Virus record (IMG/VR): IMGVR_UViG_3300015372_000001
Location: 16,738 to 80,737 of that record
DNA length: 64,000 nt
From: a virus
Strand: one strand, 5' to 3'
The position numbers and the translations under genes are program-made. Below, one piece after another: positions 13,877 through 29,935 of this stretch; the first letter of the stretch is position 1; every line of letters begins with the position of its first letter. The notes under the pieces are model-generated. The model saw nothing but the letters and a program-made list of their open reading frames with translations. It had not been told where the DNA came from and did no database searches.

Positions 13877-13922
13877 GGTGATCACACCCTTTCATGATGT
13901 GGTCGTTGGGGTTTGCACACCG

Positions 13923-13988
13923 GGCCCTCTTCGAGGCCGCTCCGCAGAGCCGGTCGATTGCCACACGTCTTCGGCCCTCTTCGAGGCC
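13923..13988. repeat. two copies of a 16-bp hairpin-forming repeat
   Basis: GGCCCTCTTCGAGGCC occurs at 13923-13938 and 13973-13988. Each copy can fold as GGCC(C)TC/GAGGCC with a short TTC loop. The 50-bp spacing and position between terminator and first gene suggest a regulatory RNA or protein-binding element. Confidence 0.6.
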
Positions 13989-14010
13989 CACCCGCAGGTT
14001 CCGGACATGC

Positions 14011-14040
14011 AAAAAGCCCCTGACCATCGGGGTCAGGGGC
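14011..14040 (-). terminator. attenuator-like terminator in leader 1
   Basis: Read leftward: GCCCCTGACC pairs with GGTCAGGGGC (14016-14025/14031-14040), followed by TTTTTGCATGTC. It lies between the unit's promoter and its first gene, so full termination would silence the unit unless relieved. Confidence 0.75.
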
Positions 14041-14112
14041 TTCAGTGGGCGGATGGCCTCTGACAGCCATCCGTCCTGTTTCCGCGCAGGCAGAAGCCCA
14101 CGCACTGGAATC

Positions 14113-14141
14113 AGTGTATCACATACACAACACTGGGTCCA
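14113..14141 (-). promoter_or_regulatory. promoter of leftward unit 1
   Basis: Leftward -35 TGGACC (14136-14141), 17-bp spacer, -10 TACACT (14113-14118). It matches four of six bases in each box. Confidence 0.5.
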
Positions 14142-14218
14142 GGAGACATCGGCAGTGGCCGGTGGGGACCGCGCACCGTGGGGATGCCGTCCTGCCTAAC
14201 CGGCCACCACCGTGGACC

Positions 14219-14246
14219 GGCCCCTCCACCGGACAACAGAGGGGCC
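14219..14246 (-). terminator. end hairpin of leftward unit 2
   Basis: GGCCCCTC / GAGGGGCC 8-bp stem just after the stop of the last unit 2 gene (14253). No T-run. Confidence 0.5.
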
Positions 14247-14252
14247 AGTCGT

Positions 14253-14510
14253 CTATGGGCTGGCCTTGCGCCTGACGGCGCACTGCTCGCACCAGCCGAT
14301 GAACCGGTCACGCCGGTCCTGCCCCAGCCGCCACAGCTCGTCGGCGATGAAGTTCGGCACCATCCGGGCGTTCTTCATCCCCGAGCAGTACGGGACGCTG
14401 TGCAGCAGCGCGACTCCTCCCATCGCGGTGGCGGTGGTGTACATGACGCCGTTGCTGGTGCGCTCCCAGTCGGCGAGCACCGACATGGTGGGCGTGAAGG
14501 TGTCAGGCAT
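14253..14510 (-). CDS. hypothetical protein
   Basis: 85 residues from ATG 14510, fixed by AGGAGG 5-6 nt upstream and overlapping the previous gene by 8 nt. Last gene of leftward unit 2. It contains MYTTATAMGGVALLHSVPYC and a Trp-rich C-terminus. No family recognised. Confidence 0.7.
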   Translation of the reverse strand: MPDTFTPTMSVLADWERTSNGVMYTTATAMGGVALLHSVPYCSGMKNARMVPNFIADELWRLGQDRRDRFIGWCEQCAVRRKASP

Positions 14511-14763
14511 CGGCTGCCTCCTTCTGGTCCGAGTCGTGCCAGGCCAGCCAGTCGGCGAACCCGACGGTGGTGTCACCTAGCGCGACCTCCTGCTGCCAGA
14601 GCGCGTACGCGCCCAGGCTGCTCGGGTCCACGGCGGCAGCACGCTCCCGAGCGCGTCGATCTGCTGCCTCCATGCAGGTGGCGATCCGGTCCAGGTGGTG
14701 CCGGATCATGCTGATGTCGCCGCAGAACTGATGGTCCATGCGGCTACCCGGCTCTCCTGGCAT
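14503..14763 (-). CDS. hypothetical protein
   Basis: 86 residues. The start ATG at 14763 overlaps the previous stop (TGATG). Helical, charged, with FADWLAWHDSDQKE near the end. No recognised domain. Translationally coupled within the unit. Confidence 0.65.
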   Translation of the reverse strand: MPGEPGSRMDHQFCGDISMIRHHLDRIATCMEAADRRARERAAAVDPSSLGAYALWQQEVALGDTTVGFADWLAWHDSDQKEAADA

Positions 14764-15140
14764 CAGCCCTCACCTCCGTGCTGGACGTGGAGATCCTCGA
14801 TCTCCTTGTTCCGCCTGGCTTCTCTCTCGGCGTGGTGAATGTCGCACAGCGTCTTCCACCAGCCGTGGATCGACCGGGTTTCGGCTCGCTTCCCGCACAC
14901 CTCGCAGAGCTTGGTGGAGGCCTCCTCGGCGATGGCGATCGCCTCGTGGAAGCCCTCGGCGTCGGACTGGGCGTAGTACCGCAGCCCGCCGAACTTCTCC
15001 TTGACCTGCTGGAGGGTGAAGTCCGGGTCCAGGTCGTTGAGCTGGAGCTCCAGGTTGCGGAGCAGTTGGTGCCAGCCCTCACCGACGTTGCTAGCCGCAG
15101 TCATCATCGGTGATGCCTGCGGCCCGAAACAGGTGGTCAT
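14763..15140 (-). CDS. conserved Cys-containing phage protein
   Basis: 125 residues. VGEGWHQLLRNLELQL, QVKEKFGGLRYY and CEVCGKRAETRSIHGWWKTLC form the pattern of a family frequent in actinophages and bacteria. A probable zinc site comes from CEVC plus the later Cys and His (TLCDIHH). Function unknown. Confidence 0.78.
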   Translation of the reverse strand: MTTCFGPQASPMMTAASNVGEGWHQLLRNLELQLNDLDPDFTLQQVKEKFGGLRYYAQSDAEGFHEAIAIAEEASTKLCEVCGKRAETRSIHGWWKTLCDIHHAEREARRNKEIEDLHVQHGGEG

Positions 15141-15511
15141 GACACTCCCTCGGTTTCCTGTGGTTCACGAGCCCAGTACTCGTGAACCTGATCCCAGCCA
15201 TCCAGCCGCTGACCGGCCAGGTGCATCACGTAGATGTCGGCGACGTGCATCATCACTCCGTAGCCCTCCATCGGGCCGCGGGTCACGATGATCCCGCCGA
15301 CGTTGGCGGTCTGCTTGGCACCGGTCACCTCGACCAGCGCCACCAGTTGGGCGAGCTCGTGGACCACCACGTCGTACGTCGGGCAGTCCTTGATGCCGCG
15401 GACTACCTTCAGGATCTGGTAGACCCGTCTGGCCTGCTCGCGCAGATGGTCGTTGTCCTTCAGCTCCGCGCTGCGGGGCATCCACTCGTGGTTCGGATCC
15501 AAGTTGCTCAT
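15137..15511 (-). CDS. hypothetical protein
   Basis: 124 residues from ATG 15511, placed by AAGGAGA upstream and an ATGA overlap with the stop of the previous gene. Soluble, mixed alpha/beta, with VRGIKDCPTYDVVVHELAQL. No family recognised. Confidence 0.7.
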   Translation of the reverse strand: MSNLDPNHEWMPRSAELKDNDHLREQARRVYQILKVVRGIKDCPTYDVVVHELAQLVALVEVTGAKQTANVGGIIVTRGPMEGYGVMMHVADIYVMHLAGQRLDGWDQVHEYWAREPQETEGVS

Positions 15512-15717
15512 GTCTCTCCTTTCTCGTGCTCTAGGTTGTGTTGCTCGGCGTACTTCGCGGAGAGCTCGGCGAGCCCTCCCAGACCCTCGGTGAACCGGGG
15601 CCATGCGTGCCCGCAGTGCGGGCACACCCAGTACAGAACTCCGTCGTAGACCCCGAGCACCTCGTAGCCGAGGTAGTCGGGCTCCTCGCACTCCGGGCAG
15701 CCGTCCGGTTCGGCCAT
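15508..15717 (-). CDS. zinc-ribbon protein
   Basis: 69 residues from ATG 15717, which overlaps the stop of the upstream gene. Two CxxC knuckles (CPEC and CPHC) separated by about 24 residues define a zinc ribbon. Short acidic tail. Binding of nucleic acid or protein is inference. Confidence 0.75.
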   Translation of the reverse strand: MAEPDGCPECEEPDYLGYEVLGVYDGVLYWVCPHCGHAWPRFTEGLGGLAELSAKYAEQHNLEHEKGET

Positions 15718-16079
15718 CAGCCGTTGTAGAGCGAGGTAGTGCCGACGAATGCTCCGGACCACTCCCAGTTGTCCAGCCAGTAGGCGTTGAAGTCACGCTC
15801 GTCCAGCTGAACGGTGTCGTTCACCTCGGCTTCGAGGCGGGCGATCATCACGTCGTAGGACTTCGCGTAGCTGGTGGGCTTCGGAAGCTTGTTCAGCGGA
15901 GAGAAGCTCTGGTAGTTCAGCTTCTGATCCTTCTCCGCTCGATCAGCGACCTTGCGAAGCTCCCGGATCGCCTTCTTCAGCCAGGTCCTCCGGGCCTTCT
16001 TGTACTCCTTGATGTGCTTGGTCCGGTTCTCCTGGAGTTTGTCCAGGAGGTCGGTGGTCTTGACCTCGGTGGGCTTCAC
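15717..16079 (-). CDS. conserved phage protein, 120 aa
   Basis: GTG start at 16079, chosen because AAGGAG lies 6 nt upstream; it overlaps the previous stop as GTGA. DLLDKLQENRTKHIKEYKK and RLEAEVNDTVQLDERDF are typical of a widespread actinophage family. The N-terminal half is a Lys-rich helix. Function unknown. Confidence 0.8.
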   Translation of the reverse strand: MKPTEVKTTDLLDKLQENRTKHIKEYKKARRTWLKKAIRELRKVADRAEKDQKLNYQSFSPLNKLPKPTSYAKSYDVMIARLEAEVNDTVQLDERDFNAYWLDNWEWSGAFVGTTSLYNG

Positions 16080-16483
16080 GGTGTTCTCCTTACTGGGTCG
16101 TTGCTGGGGCCGGTTGGCGGATGCCAGTTGCCCTTCTCGTCGCGGTACGCGGGGGTGTCGAGCATCATCACTTCGTCCTCGATCTGGTCGCCGATGGTGG
16201 TGCCGGCGGCGTTCAGGATCTTGGAGCCGCAGTCGGTGCAGCGCATCGGACGGGCTCGCGCCGTCTTCGCATCGCTGCGCTTCTCCAGCTCCTCGGTGAT
16301 CTCGGTCTCGCCGATGAAGCAGATCCCGCCGACGATGATGGCCGGGATGCCCATGGCGAAGGCGGTGGCCATCAGCGCCTTCCCGGCCGGGTCCGGCAGC
16401 CAGTAGCTGACCATCAGCGCGATCCAGGCCACCACCACGGTCACCACCGCGAACGCGGTCACCAGGCGGATGTTGTGCCGCAT
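16076..16483 (-). CDS. membrane protein with CxxC motif
   Basis: 135 residues. Two transmembrane segments near residues 7-30 (LVTAFAVVTVVVAWIALMV) and 36-58, then a soluble tail with MRCTDCGSKI. The tail probably lies in the cytoplasm. Function unknown. Confidence 0.7.
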   Translation of the reverse strand: MRHNIRLVTAFAVVTVVVAWIALMVSYWLPDPAGKALMATAFAMGIPAIIVGGICFIGETEITEELEKRSDAKTARARPMRCTDCGSKILNAAGTTIGDQIEDEVMMLDTPAYRDEKGNWHPPTGPSNDPVRRTP

Positions 16484-16839
16484 CAGTAGCCACGCTCCTC
16501 GCGGATCGTCTTGCGGGCGATCTCCCGGAACCGGCCTTCGAGATCGAGCTCGGTCTTCATCTGGGCCAGTTCCTTGGTGTCGCTGGTGATCACCTGGGCC
16601 TTCTGCTGCTGGTCCAGGTAGATGTTCTTCTCCAGCGCCATCGAGGACCGGTGGTTGGAGTGGTACCAGCCGAGCGCGACGTTGGCGGCGACCGCGGTCG
16701 CGAAGAACAGCACCCCGGACCAGATGAACCGGTAGTTCACCCCGGTGCCCATCCAGATGCCGATCAGTACCAGGGCGAACGCGATCGTGTAGAAGATCGC
16801 GATGTACTTGCTGTAGCGCAGGAAGTCGTTCCAGGTCAT
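16483..16839 (-). CDS. two-pass membrane protein with helical tail
   Basis: 118 residues from ATG 16839 behind GAGGAGAG. Hydrophobic stretches at about residues 12-32 and 38-58, then a Gln/Lys/Glu-rich helix. Overlaps the next start by one base. It forms a membrane-protein pair with the following gene. Confidence 0.68.
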   Translation of the reverse strand: MTWNDFLRYSKYIAIFYTIAFALVLIGIWMGTGVNYRFIWSGVLFFATAVAANVALGWYHSNHRSSMALEKNIYLDQQQKAQVITSDTKELAQMKTELDLEGRFREIARKTIREERGY

Positions 16840-17114
16840 GTTCTCTCCTCAGGGTGTTGGGCTTCGTAGAAGTCGATGGAGCCGATCACCATCTGGCCCC
16901 ACAGGTTCACGTCGGACTGGTCCGGGCCGAGGGCGGCTGCATAGGCCAGCCCGACCTCCTCGCGGAGGATCTCCTTGCCGTCGGCGATCCGGGTGACGGT
17001 GAGGATCCCGCGCCAGCTGTTGGTCTCCATCCGGGTCACGTCGGCCCGCCAGGCTCCGTCATCGACGCCTGCGGACCAGACCAGCCCGGCGATCTCGGCG
17101 GGTTCTTCGGTCAT
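16836..17114 (-). CDS. hypothetical protein
   Basis: 92 residues from ATG 17114 behind GAGGAG, 6 nt away. Acidic and soluble, with SWRGILTVTRIADGKEILREE strand-like stretches. No family recognised. Confidence 0.68.
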   Translation of the reverse strand: MTEEPAEIAGLVWSAGVDDGAWRADVTRMETNSWRGILTVTRIADGKEILREEVGLAYAAALGPDQSDVNLWGQMVIGSIDFYEAQHPEERT

Positions 17115-17136
17115 GGCAGCTCCTCTCACAAGTCGA

Positions 17137-17173
17137 GGGGGCAGCAAGCAGGACGTGCCTGCTCACTGCCCCC
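17137..17173 (-). terminator. intercistronic hairpin
   Basis: Stem GGGGGCAG / CTGCCCCC (17137-17144/17166-17173) continued by AGCAGG / CCTGCT. Lies between two leftward genes without a T-run. Confidence 0.5.
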
Positions 17174-17178
17174 TGGTC

Positions 17179-17412
17179 TCAGGCGACGTTCTTCAGATGG
17201 CGGATGGCCATCAGCACGAACGTCTTGGTGGACTCGAAGTAGGTGATCTTGCGAGTCACCTCGGTGCTGGTCGCGGTGAAGCCGTTCTGGCTGAACAGCT
17301 GACGAGCGAACTCACCGATCTCTCGGGTCATCTTGTCGATCGTGACCTGGTTGGCCTTCCGGGTTCCCTTGGCCAGATCCGCAACGAACTTGATCTCGAT
17401 CCTGCGTGGCAT
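17179..17412 (-). CDS. hypothetical basic protein
   Basis: 77 residues from ATG 17412 behind GGAGG. Short strand then helices: RRIEIKFVADLAKG and KMTREIGEFARQL. Basic, possibly nucleic-acid binding. No family recognised. Confidence 0.65.
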   Translation of the reverse strand: MPRRIEIKFVADLAKGTRKANQVTIDKMTREIGEFARQLFSQNGFTATSTEVTRKITYFESTKTFVLMAIRHLKNVA

Positions 17413-17416
17413 TGCG

Positions 17417-17635
17417 TTACCTCCGTTCCTTCTGTTCAGTCCGAGATGTCATGTGCCAGTACGGGCAGTCCCGGCACTTGTAGGCGCGCAGCCGTTGCCC
17501 GCCCTTGATCGCGCGATTGAGCGTGGCGCTCAGTGCATGCGCCTTGCTCTGGTAGCAGAACTTGCCGCTCTTGCACTCCTTCAGGGCCGGGGAGCGGTGC
17601 GGCTTCCTCCTCCTCGGCTTGATTCGTCGGCCCAT
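17417..17635 (-). CDS. zinc-ribbon protein
   Basis: 72 residues from ATG 17635 (GGGAGGG upstream). Very basic N-terminus (GRRIKPRRRKPHR), then Cys residues at CKSGKFC and CRDC, followed by YWHMTSR. This is the common actinophage miniprotein with Cys pairs and a YxCxxCxxWHxT ending. Possibly RNA or ribosome related; function unproven. Confidence 0.75.
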   Translation of the reverse strand: MGRRIKPRRRKPHRSPALKECKSGKFCYQSKAHALSATLNRAIKGGQRLRAYKCRDCPYWHMTSRTEQKERR

Positions 17636-17645
17636 GGGCCCTCCC

Positions 17646-17945
17646 TTACTCCTCGGTCCGCCCATAGGGGTGCGGAATGCTTCTGACGGCTCGCTTCCGG
17701 CCATGCAGCGCGGCCAGCAGCGACTCGATGTAGGGGTCGTAGGTGCCTCCGGCGATGCCCTCGATCAGGTCATCGATCTCGGGCGGTCCGGAGGACTCCG
17801 CGACCTCTTCCTCCTCGGCGCGGCGCAGCCACTCCCAGGAGTGATCGGACAGATCAGTCACGGTGTGACCGATCGGATGGGTGCAAGCCAGCCGCTCCCC
17901 GCTGACCCGGCTGGTGTACTTCTGGTTGCAGATCCGAGGGCTCAC
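17646..17945 (-). CDS. hypothetical protein
   Basis: 99 residues from GTG 17945, overlapping the previous stop as GTGA. CNQ and CTHPIGH near the N-terminus look like a small metal site. An acidic middle and a basic C-terminus follow. Function unknown. Confidence 0.65.
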   Translation of the reverse strand: MSPRICNQKYTSRVSGERLACTHPIGHTVTDLSDHSWEWLRRAEEEEVAESSGPPEIDDLIEGIAGGTYDPYIESLLAALHGRKRAVRSIPHPYGRTEE

Positions 17946-18292
17946 GCCGGCTCATCTCCTTCCGGGAGCGGGCTCTCGATCGAGATGACGCGAGGCAGTG
18001 GTTCCGGTCCGACATAGCGCAGACACCGGCAGGTGGTGAGCACCTGCCGGGTGCCCAGCTTGGTCTTCTTGAAGAAGGCGACGGTGTAGTGACAGCCGTC
18101 GTCGTCGCTGTGGAACGAGTAGTGGTGCGTGCACCCACAGGTCGGGTCCGGATCGGTGAGGACCCGGACCCGACGCTGCAGCCGAATGTTCGCCTGGTGG
18201 TAGGTCTCACCCCAGCCGAGGGTGAGGAACCAGCCGATGGCCAGCACCACGTTGCAGGTCAGGCTGACCCACAGCAGGTGCTGTGCGGTCAT
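17942..18292 (-). CDS. single-pass membrane protein with Cys/His domain
   Basis: 116 residues. One transmembrane segment at residues 4-27 (LLWVSLTCNVVLAIGWFLTL), then CGCTHHYSFHSDDDGC and CRCLRY. The latter matches a Cys/His-rich actinophage family that probably binds a metal. Confidence 0.7.
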   Translation of the reverse strand: MTAQHLLWVSLTCNVVLAIGWFLTLGWGETYHQANIRLQRRVRVLTDPDPTCGCTHHYSFHSDDDGCHYTVAFFKKTKLGTRQVLTTCRCLRYVGPEPLPRVISIESPLPEGDEPA

Positions 18293-18561
18293 CTGACGAT
18301 CGCCGTCTCACGATCGAGGATCTCGTACCGGGAGTAGCCGTTCTCCGGATCGCCGATGATCCGCTGCACCTCCGACAGCACCAGCTGGTCGAGCTGGATG
18401 TGGGTGTGCACCTCCGTGGAGGGCCCGTTGTCGGGGCTCTGGGCGGGCGTACGGCGCTTCCGGGGAGTCGGTTGGACCTCTCCCCTGGCCACGGCCTGAA
18501 CGGCCTTCTCGTGGAGGCTGGCGGTCTCGGGGAGGGGCACGCCCTTCTTGGTCTCAGTCAT
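18289..18561 (-). CDS. hypothetical protein
   Basis: 90 residues from ATG 18561 behind GGAGG. Overlaps the upstream gene by 8 nt. A disordered Pro/Arg-rich centre is followed by VHTHIQLDQLVLSEVQRI. No family recognised. Confidence 0.62.
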   Translation of the reverse strand: MTETKKGVPLPETASLHEKAVQAVARGEVQPTPRKRRTPAQSPDNGPSTEVHTHIQLDQLVLSEVQRIIGDPENGYSRYEILDRETAIVR

Positions 18562-18883
18562 GGTCCTCCGCTCCTTCCACGGTGTCCGGGATGCCGACGA
18601 ACTCCAGGTCCCGGCCACTGGCCTGGAAGATCGCCTTCATGTGCATGAACAGCGCGGCCATCGCCTGCACCGAGTCCTCGTAGTCGCGGATCTGGATCCC
18701 GGCCTTCTCGTCGTCCTCGAGGAAGACAATGGCCTTGACCGGGGTCAGGTTGGCCTCGGGGTCGCCCCGGTGCTCCTCGCGCTCTGCTTCGAGTGCGTCG
18801 TCCAAGGCGTCGGTCATCGACTGGCACAGGCGGGTCAGCCGGGTGAACGGCTGGTCGGCCTGCTTTACGTCCATGTCGGTCAT
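18554..18883 (-). CDS. hypothetical helical protein
   Basis: 109 residues. Acidic helices, a VKAIVFLEDDEKAGIQI strand pair, and a long helix AALFMHMKAIFQASG. Coupled to its neighbours by overlaps. No family recognised. Confidence 0.68.
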   Translation of the reverse strand: MTDMDVKQADQPFTRLTRLCQSMTDALDDALEAEREEHRGDPEANLTPVKAIVFLEDDEKAGIQIRDYEDSVQAMAALFMHMKAIFQASGRDLEFVGIPDTVEGAEDHD

Positions 18884-19101
18884 GGCGTTCCTTCCTTGCA
18901 GGTCAGCTGGTGGGCCTTGAGCTCGTGTCGAGCCATGGCCGCCTGCGTCCGCAGCTGTTGCAGACGCCGGCGCTCGGGGGCGCTGATGTGTCGCCCACGA
19001 GCCTTGATGGCCAGGCTGTTGTGCTCACCGGCGACCCGGACCAGGTTCCGCTTGAGCTCACTGCACTCCGCGCAAGCGACCCTGTTCTCGGCGATCCTCA
19101 T
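18880..19101 (-). CDS. hypothetical helical protein
   Basis: 73 residues from ATG 19101 after AAGGAACG. CAEC near the N-terminus and a later Cys (HQLTC). Largely helical and basic. Possible small zinc protein. Confidence 0.65.
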   Translation of the reverse strand: MRIAENRVACAECSELKRNLVRVAGEHNSLAIKARGRHISAPERRRLQQLRTQAAMARHELKAHQLTCKEGTP

Positions 19102-19155
19102 TCCGTTCCTTCCTGGGTGACTGGCATGATGGAACCTCGTTCCCTTCCAAGGCGA

Positions 19156-19200
19156 ACAGCAGAGCCCCGGAGCTTGTGGTGATCCCCGGGGCTCTGCTGT
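19156..19200 (-). terminator. strong intercistronic hairpin
   Basis: 15-bp perfect stem ACAGCAGAGCCCCGG / CCGGGGCTCTGCTGT (19156-19170/19186-19200) between two leftward genes. No T-run on either side, so it is either an intrinsic terminator of the GC-rich type or an RNA processing/stability element. Confidence 0.6.
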
Positions 19201-19201
19201 G

Positions 19202-19462
19202 TCAGGCGACTGCTCGATCCTCGCAACCGAAGACCGGGCTATTGATGTGGTGGGTGATGTTGCCCAGCTCGTCCCGTCCGATCAGGGTGACCATCCGGAT
19301 GTGCTTCGGGTTGAGCTGGGTGAGCAGGCTGGGATCGATCGCACACGAGAGCATGGTGCTGTACTCATCCATCGCCTCTTCGAGGCTGGTGTGGTTGCGG
19401 CTGAAGCTGCTCCCACTGCAGAGAGTGATCCCCACCTCATACGTCACGGATCTGGTGCCCAT
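19202..19462 (-). CDS. hypothetical protein
   Basis: 86 residues from ATG 19462, chosen by AAGGAG 4-5 nt upstream over an in-frame start at 19576. Contains RMVTLIGRDELGNITHHI. Its stop is next to the 15-bp hairpin. No family recognised. Confidence 0.65.
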   Translation of the reverse strand: MGTRSVTYEVGITLCSGSSFSRNHTSLEEAMDEYSTMLSCAIDPSLLTQLNPKHIRMVTLIGRDELGNITHHINSPVFGCEDRAVA

Positions 19463-19556
19463 GACTCCTTCTTTCGGGGTCGGCAGGTTGGTGGTGACCC
19501 ACGCCTCGCCGACCGGGAGGCATTGGCCTATCTGGCGGGGGTGTAGACCCGAGAGC

Positions 19557-19688
19557 TCACTCGAGCCCCCTGTCATGATCGTGGATCTCTTCGGTGGCCC
19601 GCCGTTGCCAGTAGGCCTCCATGAACAGGTTGGTGAGGATGGAGACCCCCACCGACCCGAATAGACAGGACAGGAAGAAGAGCGACAT
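19557..19688 (-). CDS. small membrane peptide
   Basis: 43 residues from ATG 19688, overlapping the previous stop (TGATG). Hydrophobic N-terminus SLFFLSCLFGSVGVSILTNL, then a charged tail. Likely a single-pass membrane protein. Confidence 0.5.
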   Translation of the reverse strand: MSLFFLSCLFGSVGVSILTNLFMEAYWQRRATEEIHDHDRGLE

Positions 19689-19873
19689 CAGGCCTCCTCC
19701 CCCGTCCAGTCGTGGCAGTTCCCGCAGTACCCCTCGCGGATGTCGTTCGGGTTGTGCGAGGTCCTGCCGCATCGCGGGCAGGTGAAGCCGGTGATGATCC
19801 GGTCCACCGCCTGCTGGGCCTTGCGGCCCCGCTCCACGAACTCGCGGAGCATGTCCTGGTTGCGCTCGGTCAC
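19688..19873 (-). CDS. zinc-ribbon protein
   Basis: 61 residues from GTG 19873. An N-terminal helix, then CPRCGRTSHNPNDIREGYC and CGNC knuckles. This is a well-known actinophage miniprotein with a predicted zinc ribbon. Confidence 0.75.
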   Translation of the reverse strand: MTERNQDMLREFVERGRKAQQAVDRIITGFTCPRCGRTSHNPNDIREGYCGNCHDWTGEEA

Positions 19874-20265
19874 GACTGCTCACCTTCTGCGTCGTCACGG
19901 TCGATGCGCTCGGTGGGCAACTCACCTCTGACCCGGACCTTGATCTGGTACCTGCTCCAGTCATCCCGGCCGACCTCCTGGGCGACCACATCCTGGAAGT
20001 ACTCTGGAATCTCCTCCCAGGGCACCTGGTGGAAGTCGAGCAGCTCGTTCCGCTTCAGCTCCGACCGGTCCCGGTTGAGCATCACCGCGTTCCGCAGGTA
20101 GGCCGGCTGTGCGGTCCCCAGCGGGTGGATGCCGGACGGCTCCGCACTGGGCTGGAGCGTGGTGAACTGGGTCCAGCCTTCGGTAGGGCTGGAGAACCCT
20201 TCCGGTGTCGTCGGCTGGTTGGCGTGACCGACCTCGATGACGATGGTCGGTGCAAGGTGCTTCAT
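19870..20265 (-). CDS. hypothetical protein
   Basis: 131 residues from ATG 20265 behind AAAGGGG. A flexible Pro/Gly-rich N-terminal half is followed by WEEIPEYFQDVVAQEVG and a strand-rich end. Overlaps the next gene as GTGA. No family recognised. Confidence 0.65.
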   Translation of the reverse strand: MKHLAPTIVIEVGHANQPTTPEGFSSPTEGWTQFTTLQPSAEPSGIHPLGTAQPAYLRNAVMLNRDRSELKRNELLDFHQVPWEEIPEYFQDVVAQEVGRDDWSRYQIKVRVRGELPTERIDRDDAEGEQS

Positions 20266-20334
20266 GGTGTCCCCTTTCGGAGGGTTTGGTTCCCCACGAC
20301 GGTCGCCGTGGGCAGGGCGGGTCACCCTCCAGAC

Positions 20335-20370
20335 ACGCACATCCTCGACGGAGAGGACGAGGATGTGCGT
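20335..20370 (-). terminator. intercistronic hairpin
   Basis: 13-bp perfect stem ACGCACATCCTCG / CGAGGATGTGCGT with a 10-nt loop, in the gap after the gene ending at 20388. No T-run. Confidence 0.55.
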
Positions 20371-20387
20371 GCTGGGCAGCGACCCCC

Positions 20388-21170: not shown

Positions 21171-21202
21171 TCGGTTGTTTCCCTTCGTGGTGATACAGCG
21201 AA

Positions 21203-22859: not shown

Positions 22860-22888
22860 GGTGACTCCTTTCAGGGGTCAGACATGCG

Positions 22889-22922
22889 AAAAGGCCCCCA
22901 GATCGAGTGATCTGAGGGCCTT
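22889..22922 (-). terminator. attenuator-like terminator in leader 2
   Basis: Read leftward: GGCCCTCAGATC pairs with GATCTGGGGGCC (one mismatch), loop ACTC, followed by TTTTCGCATGTC. Only 30 nt separate it from the ATG of the first gene. Confidence 0.75.
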
Positions 22923-23004
22923 CCCGCCGGCAACACCTTGTTGCCGTCGTTGCTGGTCAGAGCCGCTTTTGGGTATGCGGTCGCTGATCAACTGCTCTAA
23001 CTAT

Positions 23005-23033
23005 CTCATACAGGCGTGGGAAACGCAAGTCAA
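23005..23033 (-). promoter_or_regulatory. promoter of leftward unit 2
   Basis: Leftward -35 TTGACT (23028-23033), 17-bp spacer, -10 TATGAG (23005-23010). The local sequence is clearly AT-richer than its surroundings. Confidence 0.65.
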
Positions 23034-23070
23034 AACGCTACATTCCCAGCACTTTCTTGCGCCTCAGGAG

Positions 23071-23271
23071 TCACACCCCAGGGAACAGCCGCACGTTGGG
23101 GTCGAACGGCTCGTCCAGGATCTGGATCTCCATCTTGCGGCCTCCCTTGGTGAATACCAGGGCCACGACGCCGTAGTCGGCGGCCTGAACCTTCTCGATC
23201 GCGGCCACGATGTCGTTGCTGCTGGCCTTCATGTGCTGTGCCATCCGCAGGAAGTGGTTGTAGTCGGGCAT
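23071..23271 (-). CDS. hypothetical protein
   Basis: 66 residues from ATG 23271, with AGGAGG upstream. N-terminal helix, then VALVFTKGGRKMEIQILDEP strands. Last gene of leftward unit 3. No family recognised. Confidence 0.62.
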   Translation of the reverse strand: MPDYNHFLRMAQHMKASSNDIVAAIEKVQAADYGVVALVFTKGGRKMEIQILDEPFDPNVRLFPGV

Positions 23272-23375
23272 CAGGAGCCTCCTCTGCTCCACCACCACGC
23301 GAGGAGCAGCCCTGTCCAGAAGCAGACGTAGCCGTACAGGGCTGCCCACACGATCACCAGGTGCTGAAGACTCAC
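23271..23375 (-). CDS. small membrane peptide
   Basis: 34 codons from GTG 23375, overlapping the previous stop as GTGA and the next start as TGATG. The product SLQHLVIVWAALYGYVCF continues into a Trp-rich hydrophobic stretch, so it is one membrane span with an RGGS tail. The perfect coupling on both sides supports it despite its size. Confidence 0.5.
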   Translation of the reverse strand: MSLQHLVIVWAALYGYVCFWTGLLLAWWWSRGGS

Positions 23376-23641
23376 TCAGCCTCCTCGGCGGCCTCGGAGA
23401 TCTTCGCGATCATGTCGTCCACCACCTGCGGAGCGATCTTGAGCATCGCCTGAGCCAGCCGCAGGTGGTCGTCGTCGGCCTCGAACTCGACGCTCAGGAT
23501 CGCGCCCCTGGCCTTGATCATGACCTGGATCCCCATCTCGGTAGGCCGGATGCTGGCCTCGCCGATGGTCGCGCTGCAGTCGGCGTTGTTCAGCCGGGTC
23601 ATCAGCTCCTCGAGCAGCTCGGCATCGGGTACCTGGGTCAC
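23372..23641 (-). CDS. hypothetical protein
   Basis: 89 residues from GTG 23641, overlapping the previous stop as GTGA. Contains MIKARGAILSVEFEADDDH, then a helical acidic C-terminus. No family recognised. Confidence 0.62.
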   Translation of the reverse strand: MTQVPDAELLEELMTRLNNADCSATIGEASIRPTEMGIQVMIKARGAILSVEFEADDDHLRLAQAMLKIAPQVVDDMIAKISEAAEEAE

Positions 23642-24063
23642 AGCTTCTCCCCAGCGATCTTCTCGGCGATCCGGCGGACCTGGGTTGCCGAGTTGGAGCC
23701 GTCGAACAGCGCGCCCGCCTGCTCGTCGGTGAGACCGAGCTCCGTTATCGCGACGTACCGGACATGGATCCCGTCCACCACGTCCGTGGTGGTGTACCGG
23801 GAGTCGGCATGCATCCCGACCCAGCCGGCCACACAGTAGGCAGTGCCGCAGTGCGCCCGGATCTGGTTGAGCTGCTCGTTGTTGACTCGGGTGCCGTCGC
23901 TGTTCCAGACCATTCTGACCAGGTGGTCGGCCATGTAGTTGGGGGGCGTCACGTACCCGCCCTGCCACCACTCGCGGTCGATCTCGGGCAGAGCGTCCTG
24001 CTCCTCTACCCACTCCACTGCCTTCCGCAGCAGCGGGATGTTGGGACTGATGTTCTCGGTCAT
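23638..24063 (-). CDS. conserved phage protein, possibly DUF6197-related
   Basis: 141 residues. NIPLLRKAVEWVEEQ, then CGTAYCVAGWVGMHADSRY and a helical C-terminus. The Cys/Gly centre and the helical frame resemble DUF6197-type proteins of actinobacteria and phages. It heads a set of similar adjacent genes. Confidence 0.7.
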   Translation of the reverse strand: MTENISPNIPLLRKAVEWVEEQDALPEIDREWWQGGYVTPPNYMADHLVRMVWNSDGTRVNNEQLNQIRAHCGTAYCVAGWVGMHADSRYTTTDVVDGIHVRYVAITELGLTDEQAGALFDGSNSATQVRRIAEKIAGEKL

Positions 24064-24464
24064 GGGATGATCCCTTCATCCGGGTCGAACCCAGCTCTCG
24101 CGATCTTCTCGCACTTGGCCAGCAGGTCCTCGACCTCCGTCTGGGTGGTGGTATCGGCGTCGTTCCAGCAGGTGACCACGCCGACCGGGGCCGGCTGAAG
24201 GTCTCCGTCCTCGTCGTACTTGCGCTCGTCGTAGTCGAGCTGGCTGGCCAGCAGCCAGACCGCCTCGGTCATGTCCTCGTGCTCGGAGACCAGTTGCTCC
24301 AGGGACTCGTTGTCGGTCTCGAACAGACCCTGACAGAACGCCATCCCGCCCATCATGCAGACGTGGCCGTTCTCCTCGTTCAGGGTGCCCTGAGCCCAGC
24401 CGTGCTCCCGGATGTACTCCCGGGTGCTGGCCAGCAGGTCGGCCACCCTGTCCATGATCTTCAT
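24060..24464 (-). CDS. DUF6197-like protein (tandem copy 1)
   Basis: 134 residues. REHGWAQGTLNEENGHVCMMG and a C-terminal WNDAD followed by EVEDLLAKCEKIARA. The central Cys/Gly-containing motif and WND near the C-terminus recur in the next two genes. Function of the family unknown. Confidence 0.68.
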   Translation of the reverse strand: MKIMDRVADLLASTREYIREHGWAQGTLNEENGHVCMMGGMAFCQGLFETDNESLEQLVSEHEDMTEAVWLLASQLDYDERKYDEDGDLQPAPVGVVTCWNDADTTTQTEVEDLLAKCEKIARAGFDPDEGIIP

Positions 24465-24826
24465 GTGGTGATCCCTTCATCCGGGTCAAACCCGGCTCGT
24501 TCGATCTTGGCTGCCTTGCGGAACGTGTCCAGGACGTGCTGCTTGCCCCGGGCACCCCTCTCCTTGTCGTCGTTCCAGGTCATGACGTTGCCCGAGGCGA
24601 GGACGATGTTCTCGGATCCGTCGATCGCCTTCATCAGGGCCTGACAGGCGCGCGCGACCTCCGGGGCCTGTACCTGGCTCTCGTCCAGGTCAGCGGAGAA
24701 CAGGATCGCGCCGACGGCGCAGCTCTGGTTCCGGTTGGGACCGAGGAGGGCACCCCTCCACCAGCCATGGTTCTCGAGGTAGTCGGCCGCGGCGTCCAGC
24801 CAGTCGGCCACGGATGCGAACTTCAC
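24461..24826 (-). CDS. DUF6197-like protein (tandem copy 2)
   Basis: 121 residues from GTG 24826. LENHGWWRGALLGP, SCAVGAILF, VMTWNDDKE and FRKAAKIERAGFDPDEG. The end RAGFDPDEGI is shared almost exactly with copy 1, which shows recent duplication. Confidence 0.68.
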   Translation of the reverse strand: MKFASVADWLDAAADYLENHGWWRGALLGPNRNQSCAVGAILFSADLDESQVQAPEVARACQALMKAIDGSENIVLASGNVMTWNDDKERGARGKQHVLDTFRKAAKIERAGFDPDEGITT

Positions 24827-25203
24827 AGCTCGTCCCTCTCCGCGATCTTGATGGCTCGGTCGAATGCCTCTACCACCTCGGCCTGGGTCCGACCGGCGGC
24901 GTCGTTCCAGTCGATCAGGTCGTACTCCCAGGGCCCGGTGGTGAGCTCGGTGATGGCCATCTCCACCACCCGCTGGTCGTTGTACAAGCGCTCCTGGACG
25001 GGGCCACGGTGCCCGATCTGCTCCAGGACCGCCATCCGCAGCGCTCCGATCGAGCAGAACCTCAGCTGCCCGTCATCGTCGGTCGTCATCTCGATGTTCT
25101 GGGCCCAGCCGTTCGCGATCTTGTCGCGGGCTGCGGTCAGCTCCGCGACTGTTCGCGTCTGCATCAGTGGTCCCTCTCCGCGGGTGTAACGGGGTCGCTT
25201 CAT
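24823..25203 (-). CDS. DUF6197-like protein (tandem copy 3)
   Basis: 126 residues from ATG 25203, or 113 from ATG 25164. FCSIGALRMAVLEQ and DWNDAAGRTQAEVVEAFDRAIKIAE fit the family pattern best of the group. Overlaps the next gene as ATGA. Confidence 0.7.
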   Translation of the reverse strand: MKRPRYTRGEGPLMQTRTVAELTAARDKIANGWAQNIEMTTDDDGQLRFCSIGALRMAVLEQIGHRGPVQERLYNDQRVVEMAITELTTGPWEYDLIDWNDAAGRTQAEVVEAFDRAIKIAERDEL

Positions 25204-25688
25204 CTTTGGTTCCCTTCCGTGGGGTTGTCTTCTTCCATCTGCTTGGCGATCTCCTTGGGGTACATCACGACCATCGCGTCGTTCCAGGAGTCGGCGTAGT
25301 TGTACTGGCGCTCCCCGGTTGCGGCGTCCAGAGCATCGATGAACTGGCTCAGAAACGACCGCGAAGTGTCCTCGGGGTGCTCATCACCCGGGGTCCATCC
25401 GGTCCAGCGGGTGACCAGCAGGGAGTGTCCTTGCTCGGCCTCCTCGCGGGTGGAGTACCGGATCATGTCCAGGTCGGTGCTGTCGTCGGGGCCGAAGACC
25501 ATCGACTCGAAGATCAGCGGCGGGCCTTCCTCCCTGAACGAGTGGTCCAGCCCGAGCCAGACCGTGGAGACCCGGCAGCCGCCGGGCAGCTCGGTGTAGC
25601 CGATCCGGCGGTGCTCGAAGTCCTCGAACGTCTCGCACCACTTCTCCATGGTGATCGGCTGACCGTCCATGTCGTAGTAGTGGCTCAT
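25200..25688 (-). CDS. conserved phage protein
   Basis: 162 residues. YYDMDGQPITMEKWCETFED, VSTVWLGLDHSF and PLIFESMVFG are hallmarks of a small protein present in many actinophages. Function unknown. ATG 25688. Confidence 0.8.
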   Translation of the reverse strand: MSHYYDMDGQPITMEKWCETFEDFEHRRIGYTELPGGCRVSTVWLGLDHSFREEGPPLIFESMVFGPDDSTDLDMIRYSTREEAEQGHSLLVTRWTGWTPGDEHPEDTSRSFLSQFIDALDAATGERQYNYADSWNDAMVVMYPKEIAKQMEEDNPTEGNQR

Positions 25689-25957
25689 GTGTACCCCCAG
25701 CCCGAGCTCCCTCCGTCGTTGACCTCCTCGAACTCGACGGTGGTGGTGAACCGCAGCCCAGACTCGGTGACGATGGTGAAGGACTGGATGGTCCCGGAGT
25801 CACTGCGGTTCTCCTCGACGTGATCGACCTTGATCGGGAACTCATCGAAGCCCACGACTGCCCGAAAGCAGCCGAGGATCAGGTACTTCAGAGACCGATC
25901 CGGCATCGGGGTCTCACCGGGCCCCGGTGGGCCCATGCGGATGTGTCTCCTGGTCAT
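25685..25957 (-). CDS. hypothetical protein
   Basis: 90 residues from ATG 25957 behind AGGAGAAGG, with an alternative ATG 17 codons later. Strand-rich: FTIVTESGLRFTTTVEFEEV. No family recognised. Confidence 0.63.
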   Translation of the reverse strand: MTRRHIRMGPPGPGETPMPDRSLKYLILGCFRAVVGFDEFPIKVDHVEENRSDSGTIQSFTIVTESGLRFTTTVEFEEVNDGGSSGWGYT

Positions 25958-26109
25958 GACGCCTTCTCCTTCGGTGCCTGGTACCACCAGCGCTTGCACT
26001 CGGCGCAGAAGTGGTCTCCGTCGTTGTGGTCGCCGGTGCAGGTGTGGGTGTGGCCGGGATCGGCGATCCCCGGCATGGTCGCCCGGCAGATCTTCGGCTT
26101 GTCGTTCAC
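25954..26109 (-). CDS. small Cys/His protein
   Basis: 51 residues from GTG 26109, coupled on both sides (GTGA upstream, ATGA downstream). Sequence includes PGHTHTCTGDHNDGDHFC and CKRWW: a probable metal-binding miniprotein. Short, but well supported by exact coupling. Confidence 0.62.
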   Translation of the reverse strand: MNDKPKICRATMPGIADPGHTHTCTGDHNDGDHFCAECKRWWYQAPKEKAS

Positions 26110-26309
26110 AGCCACACCACCTGAGTGGCACCGTCATGACCGTGGATCGACATCGCGTCGTCCAGGTTGGCCCAGATCACGGTGGAGGCCTTCTCGGTCA
26201 GCCACCTGATCGCCACCGTGCCGTCGGTGAACTGCACGCCCTCGGCCACGATCCCGGTGCCCGAGACACCGGAGACATCGCGGTCGCGGAGCAGCCGGAA
26301 GGTCCTCAC
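26106..26309 (-). CDS. conserved phage protein
   Basis: 67 residues from GTG 26309, overlapping the previous stop. FRLLRDRDVSGVSGTGIVAE, DGTVAIRWLTE and HGHDGATQVVWL match a beta-rich miniprotein very common in actinobacteria and their phages. Function unknown. Confidence 0.8.
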   Translation of the reverse strand: MRTFRLLRDRDVSGVSGTGIVAEGVQFTDGTVAIRWLTEKASTVIWANLDDAMSIHGHDGATQVVWL

Positions 26310-26647
26310 AGGAACTCCACTCGGGAGAACGGGTTCCCCACAACCGGGTGCTTCGGCTTGTCTCCGTGAGAGGAAGGACCGATCATCTGCTGCCCGGCGT
26401 GGAACTTGCAGATGTCGTTGTAGCAGCTGATGCAGTAGTGGCCGATCATCCCGCAGCAGGACCTGATCGTGACCACCTTCGCCGGGTTGGAGCAGGTGAA
26501 GTTGTTGCCGACGGTCTCCACCGGACCTCCGTTCTCGGCGCGCTGGAACTTGTGCCCGATGCACTTCGGCACCTTCTCCTGGGACTCCTCCGGGTCGAAG
26601 TCCAGGTGGGTGATCTCGGCCGGGACTGTGGTGTTCTGCTCACTCAT
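26306..26647 (-). CDS. Cys-rich zinc-binding protein
   Basis: 113 residues. Cys at CSN, SCCG and CISC, with His residues, suggest a zinc site. A hydrophilic N-terminus precedes it. Overlaps the DUF4262 gene by 8 nt. Confidence 0.65.
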   Translation of the reverse strand: MSEQNTTVPAEITHLDFDPEESQEKVPKCIGHKFQRAENGGPVETVGNNFTCSNPAKVVTIRSCCGMIGHYCISCYNDICKFHAGQQMIGPSSHGDKPKHPVVGNPFSRVEFL

Positions 26648-27107
26648 CGCCGCTCCAGATCCCGAGCAGCGGCTGCCGGTCCCGGTACTCCTCCTCGAAG
26701 TCCTCGTGCCAGGGGAACCTGTCGCTGGCGTCCGGCCAGACGATCTGCAGTGCCTCCACCTGTCCGAAGAGGTGGTTGCACATGGACAGCGGGTAGTCCC
26801 CGAGGGGCTCCAGGACCTCCAGAACGGCCACTCTGAGGCCTCGCAGCACCTCGGTGGAGTAGGTGTCCGGGTAGAACCTGGTACCCCGCTGAACGGCCTG
26901 GTACGCCGCGTTCAGGACACCGTGCGCCTGCTGCTGCACCATGCCCATCACGATCATGTCGGGGTGGTCGTGCTTGGTCATCCCGACGGTGTAGGTGAAG
27001 TACTCGTTGCCCGGGCCGAGGTCGTCCTCGGTGGGGAACACCGAGATCGCCGCCCAGCCGGTGCGCTCGATGTCGTCAAGGACCTTCCGGTCCACCTTGT
27101 CCAGCAT
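26640..27107 (-). CDS. DUF4262 protein
   Basis: 155 residues from ATG 27107 behind GAAGGAG. DDIERTGWAAISVFPTED, YTVGMTKHDHPDMIVMG and a C-terminal helical region follow the DUF4262 layout. The biochemical function of the family is unknown. The longer frame to 27368 overlaps the upstream gene and is discounted. Confidence 0.78.
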   Translation of the reverse strand: MLDKVDRKVLDDIERTGWAAISVFPTEDDLGPGNEYFTYTVGMTKHDHPDMIVMGMVQQQAHGVLNAAYQAVQRGTRFYPDTYSTEVLRGLRVAVLEVLEPLGDYPLSMCNHLFGQVEALQIVWPDASDRFPWHEDFEEEYRDRQPLLGIWSGDE

Positions 27108-27447
27108 CTTCCTCTCCTTCCGGTGTGGTTGAACGTGCGATCTGCTCCTCGGTGTAGCGGCAGCCGATGGCGAAGCCGTCCACCCACAGCGCCATCCCCA
27201 GCGCCCGCAGATCGAGGTCGGTCTGGAGCGCGGGGTTGATCTCGGTCCCGCGCAGGACCCGTTGGTTGCACAGGTAGACCACGGAGTCGGGGTCGGCATA
27301 GACCGCCACGATCTCCTTGGGATGGTGACCACCCTCGCCGGCCTGACCGTCGAGGTAGTTGACCGCATCGGACAGCCACCAGAAGTCGGTGTGCCGGGGA
27401 CGGTCAGGGAACCTCGGGTCGTTGAGCGGGTCGATGAAGTCGTTCAC
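27076..27447 (-). CDS. conserved phage protein
   Basis: 123 residues from GTG 27447. DPLNDPRFPDRPRHTDFWWL and the LDLRALGMALWVDGFAIG segment are familiar from actinophages. It overlaps the DUF4262 start by 32 nt, longer than the 4-8 nt usual here. Function unknown. Confidence 0.72.
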   Translation of the reverse strand: MNDFIDPLNDPRFPDRPRHTDFWWLSDAVNYLDGQAGEGGHHPKEIVAVYADPDSVVYLCNQRVLRGTEINPALQTDLDLRALGMALWVDGFAIGCRYTEEQIARSTTPEGEEDAGQGGPEGP

Positions 27448-27590
27448 GACCGCTCACCCACTTCGGGCGGAGTGACGCACGGCTCGCATTGGTCGTCGAG
27501 GTTGTCGCGCTCCCAATCCGTCAGGGCATGGCCGCAGGTTCGGCAGACGATTGCCCGCGAGCGACCCGCGTCATTCTCGGCGTTAGGCAT
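27444..27590 (-). CDS. small zinc-ribbon protein
   Basis: 48 residues from ATG 27590, overlapping genes on both sides (8 nt upstream, GTGA downstream). Cys pairs CRTC and CEPC separated by about 15 residues. The C-terminus CVTPPEVGE resembles the end of the next upstream gene. Confidence 0.62.
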   Translation of the reverse strand: MPNAENDAGRSRAIVCRTCGHALTDWERDNLDDQCEPCVTPPEVGERS

Positions 27591-27843
27591 CGCGTCCTCC
27601 CTCGGGCGGAGTGACGCGGGTCCAGTCGCTCACCATCCGGGTCTCAATGCGGAGGTTCCGCTTCGGGGCTCTGAGCGACCTTTCCTCCACGATGCGGAGC
27701 GCGGCCTGCACGGCGTCAAGGGATGGGACCTCGTGCATCCGAACCGCGTTGTGCGAGCCGTCCATGTTCGGGGTGTCGCTGTCGTAGGCGACGCACCAGA
27801 CCTGGCGTAGCCCATTCTCGGCGGTAGATGTCTGGTCGTTCAT
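27583..27843 (-). CDS. hypothetical protein
   Basis: 86 residues from ATG 27843. QVWCVAYDSDTPNMDGSH, then a helix and strands, ending VTPPEGGRDA. Soluble; no family recognised. Confidence 0.66.
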   Translation of the reverse strand: MNDQTSTAENGLRQVWCVAYDSDTPNMDGSHNAVRMHEVPSLDAVQAALRIVEERSLRAPKRNLRIETRMVSDWTRVTPPEGGRDA

Positions 27844-28148
27844 GGCAGCTCCTTGCAGCTCGGGCAGACCCCGAACATGAAGATCACCTGGACGTTGCCC
27901 CGCATCCGGACCGAGTGGCCGGTGTAGAACTCGTCCGGGCAGTAGGCACCGCAGTTGTCGCAGGTGCGCTCCCAGACCTCACGGTCGTGATCGGTGGCGT
28001 TCTCCTCGGGCTCGGTCAGCGGGGTCATCACCACGTTGGCCGGCACGTCGGCGGCGTTGCCCATGTGCTGCTCCATCAGGGCCAGCCGCTGGTCGATGCT
28101 CGCCCGCAGCCACGTCGGCTCAGGCTGGAGCTTGGGCTTGTCATCCAT
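27840..28148 (-). CDS. zinc-binding protein
   Basis: 102 residues. CDNCGAYC and CPSC knuckles in the C-terminal half with strand-forming sequence between them. The N-terminus is helical. Probable zinc ribbon. Confidence 0.7.
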   Translation of the reverse strand: MDDKPKLQPEPTWLRASIDQRLALMEQHMGNAADVPANVVMTPLTEPEENATDHDREVWERTCDNCGAYCPDEFYTGHSVRMRGNVQVIFMFGVCPSCKELP

Positions 28149-28392
28149 GGCTCTCCTCCGGACAGCCGCCGTCCTCGTTCAGATGCCGGTCCAGGGACTC
28201 GGCGTCCTCGAACCGGTAGTGGCAGTGCGGGCACTCGTGCAGGCCAGGCAACTGGTCCTCCTCCTCGGGGTAGTTGGTCTCGCAGAACGGGTTCGCGCAG
28301 GCCAGCGGCCCACCCACCACCCATCCCTTCGGCTTGTAGATGGTGGTGTGCCCGCAGTACGGGCACACCGGGGAGTACTCAGATGTGGACAT
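28141..28392 (-). CDS. zinc-finger protein
   Basis: 83 residues. CPYC, a central CANPFC and CPHC followed by H and C give two metal sites; the last looks like a C2H2-type finger (CPHCHYRFEDAESLDRHL). DNA or RNA binding is inference. Confidence 0.72.
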   Translation of the reverse strand: MSTSEYSPVCPYCGHTTIYKPKGWVVGGPLACANPFCETNYPEEEDQLPGLHECPHCHYRFEDAESLDRHLNEDGGCPEESHG

Positions 28393-29575
28393 CGACCACG
28401 GCCAGGTATGCCTCGTCCGGCAGGCTGTCGATCAGCCGGGCGAACTCGCGCTCCCAGGTGGTCTGGTCCTTCTCGTTGCTGACCGTCCCGAACCAGCCCA
28501 TCCGACCCTGCTCGTGCCACTGACCGTCGACCAGCACCGCGTGGGTGATCCCAGCGCCGTCACGAGCGTGAGCGACGTACGCCTCACGACCACCGGAGTT
28601 GACGTACCAGGCCTCCAGCGGGTCATCGAGCCACGGCATCAGGTGGGCCTCGGACAGGGCCTTGATGAACGGCTGGTTGTGGAACTGGTGGCGAGCCTCG
28701 TTGGTGAGCTGCTGCCGGTTCTGCACCCACTCGGCCTCCGAGACCGGCTCCAGTTTCTCCGCAGTCCTGGCCAGCACGTAGCCGTCGTAGGTCTCGTCCG
28801 GGTCGGTGTCGTGGTCGAAGTACACCCGGCGCAGCAGGTCCGGCCAGCTCTCCGGCAGCTCCAGGCCGACGGTCGCCTTCTCGAAGGCGTCGTAGCCGGC
28901 CTCGGCGTTCTGCCCAGCCATCATCCGCATCGCCTCGAAGTCGATCTGGCCCTTGCGAGCCAGGTCCGCCCGGCCCTCGAAGTTGCTGCCCTGGTCGTCA
29001 CCGAAGGTGCCTCCGTTGCCGAGCACGGCGTCCTGGGAGCCGTCGTAGACCGGGAGCTGCTCCTCGCCGTGAACCCGGTCCTCACCGACCGGTGACCGGT
29101 CCTCCAGTGCCCTGCGCCACTCCGGTACCGGTACCGCGGCCAGGTTCACCGCGGGCTTGAGCTGGTAGAAGCCGTGCCAGCGACCACCGAGGGTCCACCA
29201 GTCCCAGCGCGAGTCCGGGTTGTAGCTGGACAGGTAGCCGAACCGGTCCTCCTCGGCGTCGTAGATCCCGCGCTCACAGCCGTTGCCGAAGTAGCCACCG
29301 ACGGCCATCCGGGCCCACTCGTTCCAGGCCTCGAGGTTGCCCTCGGTCACGTAGTCATCGAACGGCTTGGTCGGACCGTCGTCACCGGTGCAGTACTCGG
29401 GGTGCTCCCGGTAGAAGGTCTGGGCCTGCTGGACGCCATCGGCTTCCACCCACTCCGGGTAGGGGTCCATCTCCTTGTTCTCATCGAAGGGATCGAGGAT
29501 CCCTCCCAACATCTCCATCGCCTCGGCAGAGGTACTGGCGTCACGGATTACCACGGTCACGGTGCTGTGCGACAT
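28379..29575 (-). CDS. conserved large hypothetical phage protein
   Basis: 398 residues from ATG 29575 behind GGAAGGG. YNPDSRWDWWTLGGRWHGFY is the signature of a family common in actinophages and actinobacteria. The rest is acidic with a helical centre and a C-terminal beta-rich segment. First gene of leftward unit 3. Function unknown. Confidence 0.8.
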   Translation of the reverse strand: MSHSTVTVVIRDASTSAEAMEMLGGILDPFDENKEMDPYPEWVEADGVQQAQTFYREHPEYCTGDDGPTKPFDDYVTEGNLEAWNEWARMAVGGYFGNGCERGIYDAEEDRFGYLSSYNPDSRWDWWTLGGRWHGFYQLKPAVNLAAVPVPEWRRALEDRSPVGEDRVHGEEQLPVYDGSQDAVLGNGGTFGDDQGSNFEGRADLARKGQIDFEAMRMMAGQNAEAGYDAFEKATVGLELPESWPDLLRRVYFDHDTDPDETYDGYVLARTAEKLEPVSEAEWVQNRQQLTNEARHQFHNQPFIKALSEAHLMPWLDDPLEAWYVNSGGREAYVAHARDGAGITHAVLVDGQWHEQGRMGWFGTVSNEKDQTTWEREFARLIDSLPDEAYLAVVDVHI

Positions 29576-29606
29576 TCGGTTCCCTTCCATAGGTTGTCTG
29601 GGCATG

Positions 29607-29656
29607 AAAAAGGCCCGGTACCGGAGAAGCTTCCTCTGCTCCTCCGACACCGGGCC
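29607..29656 (-). terminator. attenuator-like terminator in leader 3
   Basis: Read leftward: GGCCCGGT-GT-CGGAG pairs with CTCCG-GT-ACCGGGCC, followed by TTTTTCATGCCC. The first gene of the unit starts about 30 nt further on; an ATG inside CATGCCC is in frame with it. Confidence 0.78.
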
Positions 29657-29906
29657 GGTCTTCCTTGAACCTTCCCAGAACGGTTGGGAAGGGCCTGGAT
29701 CAGGGCATGCGGTGCCCCAAACGCTAGGTTCATTGTATCTCATCTAGGTAAAGACGCACAAGGGCCGAGACGATGTTCGTCCCGGCCTGTTCGGAGTATC
29801 AGCGCGGCACTGTGTCTACGTGACGGGCCGACTGATTGACCCCGAGGCGAGGTGTGATCCCCGCCAGAGACCGCCGGCTAACCTGCCCAGCGATCTCATG
29901 TACCCC

Positions 29907-29935
29907 ACTGTAGGCCATACACCACAGGTTGTCAA
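29907..29935 (-). promoter_or_regulatory. promoter of leftward unit 3
   Basis: Consensus-like leftward -35 TTGACA (29930-29935), 17-bp spacer, -10 TACAGT (29907-29912). Strongest promoter match in the window. Confidence 0.78.

Follow-up and report, generated by a model that had tools for sequence, protein, structure and literature searches.

Terminator-bearing leaders at three leftward operons of an uncultivated phage and their possible passage by antitermination

Three leftward transcription units of an uncultivated, soil-type phage share one arrangement at their starts: a promoter, a 5′-terminal hairpin, a strong intrinsic terminator and only then the first gene. The phage (G000) is represented by the IMG/VR virus record IMGVR_UViG_3300015372_000001 of 80,737 bp, and the window analyzed here comprises its bases 16738-80737 (64 kb; positions below are those of the window). 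The three-unit layout is confirmed as real in the window. We propose, with a probability of roughly 0.45, that the leader terminators are passed by processive antitermination, either trans-acting or RNA-based in the manner of put or nut sites.

A strict search for a hairpin followed by at least four T residues, with an energy of −22 kcal/mol or lower, returned three terminators on the minus strand of the window and one on the plus strand. Across 40 dinucleotide shuffles the same search found, counting both strands, 0.05 on average and never more than 1. Each of the three leftward terminators separates a unit's promoter from its first gene; the leader hairpins and terminator-like stems that the initial annotation had described in these units are all present. 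A promoter consensus scan of the window gave one match where 1.6 were expected, and the promoters named earlier are weak by consensus. Since the scan does no better than chance, promoters were judged by their conservation in relatives.

These relatives were collected in several ways. G001 was found by protein search with P0003 (64%) and G002 with P0002 (50%), the products of the first genes of units 3 and 2; further contigs came from an IMG/VR scan for GGGG-N0-3-TTTTTGCATGTCC, which was designed after the window's unit 1 and after G001; and G013 was found through the unit-3 stem. G000-G011 and G013 form one group, with DnaE 46-81% identical where present and terminase 56-70% identical. The nearest DnaE relatives belong to Gordonia and Brevibacterium phages, and the group looks actinobacterial. 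Among isolated phages, megablast of the region gave no match and tblastn with the terminase nothing closer than 26%. Distant blastn with the leader of a relative produced chance matches only.

Unit 1 starts at a promoter at 14113-14141 (minus strand, as are all features of the three units) with the sequence TGGACC-17-TACACT and an extended −10, TGaTACACT; the form TGnTAnAnT is kept in the unit-1 leaders of relatives. The leader RNA opens with the 5′-terminal hairpins H1 and H1b (14042-14108; minimum free energy −36.3 kcal/mol, z = −4.3 versus dinucleotide shuffles). The terminator that follows (14003-14041, −22.1 kcal/mol) consists of a 27-nucleotide (nt) hairpin, TTTTT and GCATGTCC, the stem itself occupying 14015-14041 and being followed by TTTTTGCATGTCC. 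It has homologues in G003, G004, G005, G006, G007, G011 and G013. The first gene (P0001, 12818-13876) encodes 352 amino acids (aa) without a family match; proteins at this position in relatives are 15-45% identical and short of conserved stretches usable for direct profile search.

In unit 2 the promoter is TTGACT-17-TATGAG at 23005-23033, with an alternative −10, GATAGT, at 23000-23005; its elements TTGACTTGC...TATGgGATAGTTA are kept in G011. Hairpins H1 and H1b (22925-22998, z = −2.9) come next, and related copies of this type of H1, with the loop NNNNGCAU, are found in five relatives. The terminator at 22881-22920 (−22.9 kcal/mol) is a hairpin with TTTT and CGCATGTC; its stem spans 22893-22920 and precedes TTTTCGCATGTC. 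The first gene, P0002 (22536-22859), encodes a Cys-rich protein of 107 aa.

The relatives thus agree with the unit-1 −10 and the unit-2 promoter of the initial annotation. Its unit-3 promoter, TTGACA-17-TACAGT at 29935, was not traced in them, and we prefer TTGTGC-18-TACAAT at 29732-29761, because TTGTGC-17/18-TAnANT stands at the same place before unit 3 in G001, G003, G004, G005, G006 and G013. With this revision the unit-3 leader shrinks from the 330 nt proposed before to about 120 nt. It carries H1, with the loop ACCGCAU, and H1b (29670-29722; z = −1.0 in the window and −1.8 to −5.6 in homologues), followed by the strongest of the three terminators, a 19-bp hairpin with TTTTT and CATGCCC (29600-29656, −36.4 kcal/mol; stem at 29612-29656, then TTTTTCATGCCC). 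The first gene, P0003 (28379-29575, 398 aa), belongs to PHROG 10079, of unassigned function. The terminators had been placed right before the first gene, which holds for units 2 and 3, where about 30 nt separate the T-run from the ATG; in unit 1 the corresponding distance is about 135 nt.

Leaders homologous to those of units 1, 2 and 3 keep one order throughout G000, G003, G004 (if the cut in its contig is taken into account), G005, G011 and G013; G001, G006, G007 and G010 have one or two of them. In 24 of 25 leaders from 11 contigs a −10-like hexamer, mostly of the extended TGn type, lies 33-80 nt upstream of the stem. The stems themselves covary. In the unit-3 terminators of nine phages, 8 of 15 pairs have changed on both sides and 94.8% of cells are paired, a result reached by none of 500 shuffles; three pairs in unit 2 and six in unit 1 have also changed on both sides. 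Lack of conservation in relatives had been named as grounds for rejecting the layout, and covariation as a check on it: the layout survived, with compensatory changes in the stems of all three units. The first genes vary while it stays, P0003 being found only in G000 and G001 and P0002 only in G000 and G002.

The other constant element is H1, which opens every leader with a recognized −10 (24 of 24, mean z −3.1). The leader sequences differ from unit to unit, apart from the tetranucleotide GCAT, which is present between the −10 and the terminator in 12 of 24 leaders (3.6 expected), often in the H1 loop, as in NNNNGCAU of unit 2. This enrichment is suggestive only, the homologous leaders not being independent. 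The spacing between H1 and the terminator varies widely among leaders, and in unit 3 of G013 it accommodates a tRNA-like RNA recognized by Rfam (RF00005, 48.1 bits, 3-nt anticodon loop; L105, 15635-15700, minus strand). Neither the window nor any leader contains a tRNA by ARAGORN, the G013 insert being detected by Rfam only. A leader-like element at 2760-2835 (plus strand) of L007 has a sequence resembling a tRNA T-arm, GGGGTTCGAGTCCCC, shortly before TTTTTTATGCCC, without an Rfam tRNA match.

How might genes behind such leaders be expressed? In the proposed mechanism a host-type promoter heads each unit and gives rise to a short leader RNA containing H1, sometimes two hairpins, and an intrinsic terminator ahead of the start codon. 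By default RNA polymerase would stop at the leader terminator in the host, and the gene block would be expressed only as far as this terminator is passed. Passage would be conditional: the polymerase would be altered while transcribing the promoter-proximal leader, with H1 serving in cis in the manner of nut or put RNA, and a phage protein might or might not take part. The altered enzyme would then ignore the leader terminator and the weaker intergenic hairpins, up to an operon-end terminator with a longer T-run.

Two considerations favor this mechanism. In units 2 and 3 the T-run and the ATG are only about 30 nt apart, too close to fit another promoter, so the first genes of these units need read-through. 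Moreover, a terminator in the 5′ untranslated region that is maintained by selection while the downstream genes differ argues for conditional read-through of the operon group. The initial annotation had offered antitermination or attenuation: conditional read-through is the part for which the evidence argues, while classical attenuation is disfavored. Searches of the leaders brought up neither a conserved leader peptide nor an antiterminator pairing nor a riboswitch known to Rfam, and there is the G013 insert, all of which favors processive antitermination instead. The coordinated control of about 56 early genes that the annotation also suggested stays conjectural.

Several observations weigh against the antitermination model. 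No antiterminator protein was recognized with Pfam or PHROGs among the approximately 40 proteins scanned; H1 has no common sequence across units, GCAT alone being enriched; and leaky terminators would give the same picture. The sequence after the T-run also fails to discriminate, since an ordinary operon-end terminator has it too.

That sequence is a CATG-type motif with the consensus CATGYCC, which in almost every leader starts 6-7 nt beyond the stem, at the position where polymerase would release the RNA. As most relatives were picked with a pattern containing the motif, only unselected copies were counted. By our tally 14 of 17 of these carry [CT]ATG[CT]C, versus ATGYC at that place in 4 of 123 unselected terminators from bacterial fragments. 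Matches to TTTTN0-3CATGYCC in the first ten contigs examined are confined to one strand, and a reversed control pattern gave none. Judged by its distribution, CATGYCC marks the terminators of this phage group. The resemblance after the T-runs noted previously is real, and yet it does not single out antitermination. We had considered it a leader-specific mark and abandoned this, and with it the idea that strong leftward terminators are limited to leaders, when a relaxed scan revealed an operon-end terminator after the last leftward gene (leftward arm, 7191-7250, minus strand): a nested hairpin that carries the motif (TTTTTTTATGCCC, 7191-7203) and a T-run of 7 nt, compared with 4-6 nt in the leaders. 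Single sites of this type are present on the same strand in G001, G004, G006 and G007, also with the motif, which is therefore no proof of antitermination. Hairpins upstream of a small rightward gene in G003, G004, G006 and G010 bear the motif as well.

As a free-standing word GCATGTCC is not enriched in the window (6 occurrences, 3.7 expected), which argues against an operator or stoperator role. Scanning bacterial genomes for GGGG-T5-GCATGTCC returned many ordinary terminators, by our estimate about what chance gives for that much DNA, and hence carries no information on spread beyond phages. In eight isolated phages the pattern TTTTN0-3CATGYC had four matches, none behind an evident terminator hairpin, and the layout was not found among them. 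Low-GC phages (L024, L028, L029, L031, L034, L038, L043, L047, L049 and L054) have a −10-like element, a terminator, GCATGTCC and a ribosome-binding site, together, in L024, with an HNH endonuclease gene. These copies are near-identical and so amount to one independent case. That CATGYCC, the 5′-terminal hairpin and a putative phage factor together license operons one by one, the motif being a lineage-specific terminator mark, is a further idea that we hold to be rather doubtful.

The rival that survives best, in our estimate unlikely but a little less so than that idea, is fixed partial termination: the leader terminators would simply leak, setting a constant low level for each unit, whether as expression valves or to stop read-through from the unit upstream, with no switching. 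The leader T-runs are shorter than that of the end terminator, and hairpins followed by poor T-runs and CATGYC stand before genes inside operons (G003 at 49179 and 60333, G013 at 10848), resembling graded polarity. Against it, the leader stems rank with the strongest hairpins in the genome and persist alongside the 5′ hairpin and promoter, and unit 3 has the strongest stem although its upstream neighbors are mostly rightward genes and leave it little need of insulation.

We consider it improbable that the leaders are small-RNA genes, whose main product would be the terminated transcript of 70-130 nt and for which the mRNA would be leakage. A compact 5′ hairpin plus terminator does have the shape of a bacterial small RNA, and the tRNA-like RNA in the G013 unit-3 leader could be taken in the same sense; but neither the units nor most of the relatives have a leader sequence in common, and units 2 and 3 show no other route to expression of their first genes.

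More improbable still is attenuation controlled by a ligand, ribosome or protein through mutually exclusive terminator and antiterminator structures. A hairpin and then a terminator in the leader is the usual anatomy of an attenuator. Here the upstream leader shows no excess complementarity to the terminator arms over shuffles (mean z +0.42 and −0.04), the H1-terminator spacing is variable and in G013 holds the tRNA-like insert, no leader peptide with a ribosome-binding site is conserved across homologues, and no Rfam leader or riboswitch family matches at gathering score. A comparably slim chance attaches to non-terminating hairpins that stabilize the 5′ untranslated region or serve as mRNA processing sites: stable 5′-terminal hairpins are typical of mRNA stabilizers and one opens every leader, but stability requires neither a T-run nor a nearly fixed distance from stem to CATG motif.

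Antitermination, our favored explanation, has known precedents in promoter-terminator-gene leaders (lambdoid Q, put and N) and at the operon starts of conjugative plasmids (conAn, with the ConAn1 protein and conAn2 RNA). In lambdoid phages the pR′-tR′ region with Q antitermination comprises a promoter, a short leader, an intrinsic terminator and genes whose expression needs read-through (PMC6606751). The terminator between a promoter and the operon it serves is common to both; unlike the Q system, there are several units here with variable first genes, no Q-binding element or conserved −10-like pause element was recognized, and no Q homologue matched among the proteins scanned with Pfam and PHROGs, a subset of the genes. 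In HK022 the put RNA, about 70 nt folded into two stem-loops, acts from immediately downstream of a promoter and needs no phage protein (PMC9378689). Stem-loops at the extreme 5′ end of the transcript, followed by terminators to pass, are found here in 24 of 24 leaders. However, put sites within one phage are alike in sequence, whereas the H1 copies are alike only in structure and a frequent GCAT, and the phage is actinophage-like, not lambdoid. In the conAn system of pLS20-type conjugation operons, which belongs to Gram-positive hosts, antitermination acts where long operons begin and involves an RNA component in cis (PMC8955417); by description it resembles what we propose, except that in place of one long operon there are several short units. 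The hairpin-then-terminator leader is shared with attenuators and terminating riboswitches, but not the alternative pairing, leader peptide or Rfam match missing here.

With lambda N and nut the layout has in common that several operons carry a hairpin in the stretch from promoter to terminator and that a gene for a small basic protein lies nearby; it differs in that no boxA or boxB consensus was identified and that this protein, P0004, is not found in all relatives. P0004 (30834-31079, minus strand; 81 aa) lies upstream of unit 3, behind a fourth, weaker leader-like hairpin (31142-31175, minus strand) that is followed by TTTCGCATGTCC. Homologues are present in G010 (70%) and in G003 and G013 (45%), and were not found in the other contigs. 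Its N terminus has the basic stretch TRGARRSRKRKRDSQEKQWAARS in translation, which we take to be loosely like the arginine-rich motif of lambda N; most of this motif is missing from the homologue in G013. As a candidate antiterminator P0004 is speculative, a lead only.

The neighborhood of P0004 has other features. Upstream of it, a stretch of about 100 nt of unusually conserved DNA with several small hairpins (31180-31285, minus strand) lies in alignments of 75-80% identity over 200-295 nt with G010, G003 and G013; it may be an RNA, a replication origin or a packaging site. A strong rightward terminator hairpin at 31384-31415 (plus strand), followed by TTTTGCTGTC, precedes a rightward open reading frame (31494-31823) by about 80 nt, and in relatives the order hairpin, TTCATGCCC, ribosome-binding site and ATG is seen before a small rightward membrane-type gene. 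A collagen-like repeat gene lies at 30244-30816 (plus strand), and six relatives carry similar sequences (32-42%). Elsewhere in the window, a 61-residue stretch encoded at 41476-41661 (plus strand) is 85-93% identical in seven relatives and 59-66% in three more; it is more conserved than DnaE, has no Pfam or PHROG match and probably represents the C-terminal portion of some longer gene.

In the literature searched, to which subscription papers mostly did not belong, we found no description of a multi-operon, CATGYCC-linked layout and no antitermination system described for this phage group. The element after the T-run is odd in itself, following nearly all strong leftward terminators of the group while being rare in bacterial fragments (4 of 123). 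If read-through is conditional, a multi-operon version of the promoter-terminator-gene leader, with a terminator-linked CATGYCC and in an uncultivated group, would be new, and the three units would belong to a phage-wide antitermination regulon in actinobacterial-looking phages.

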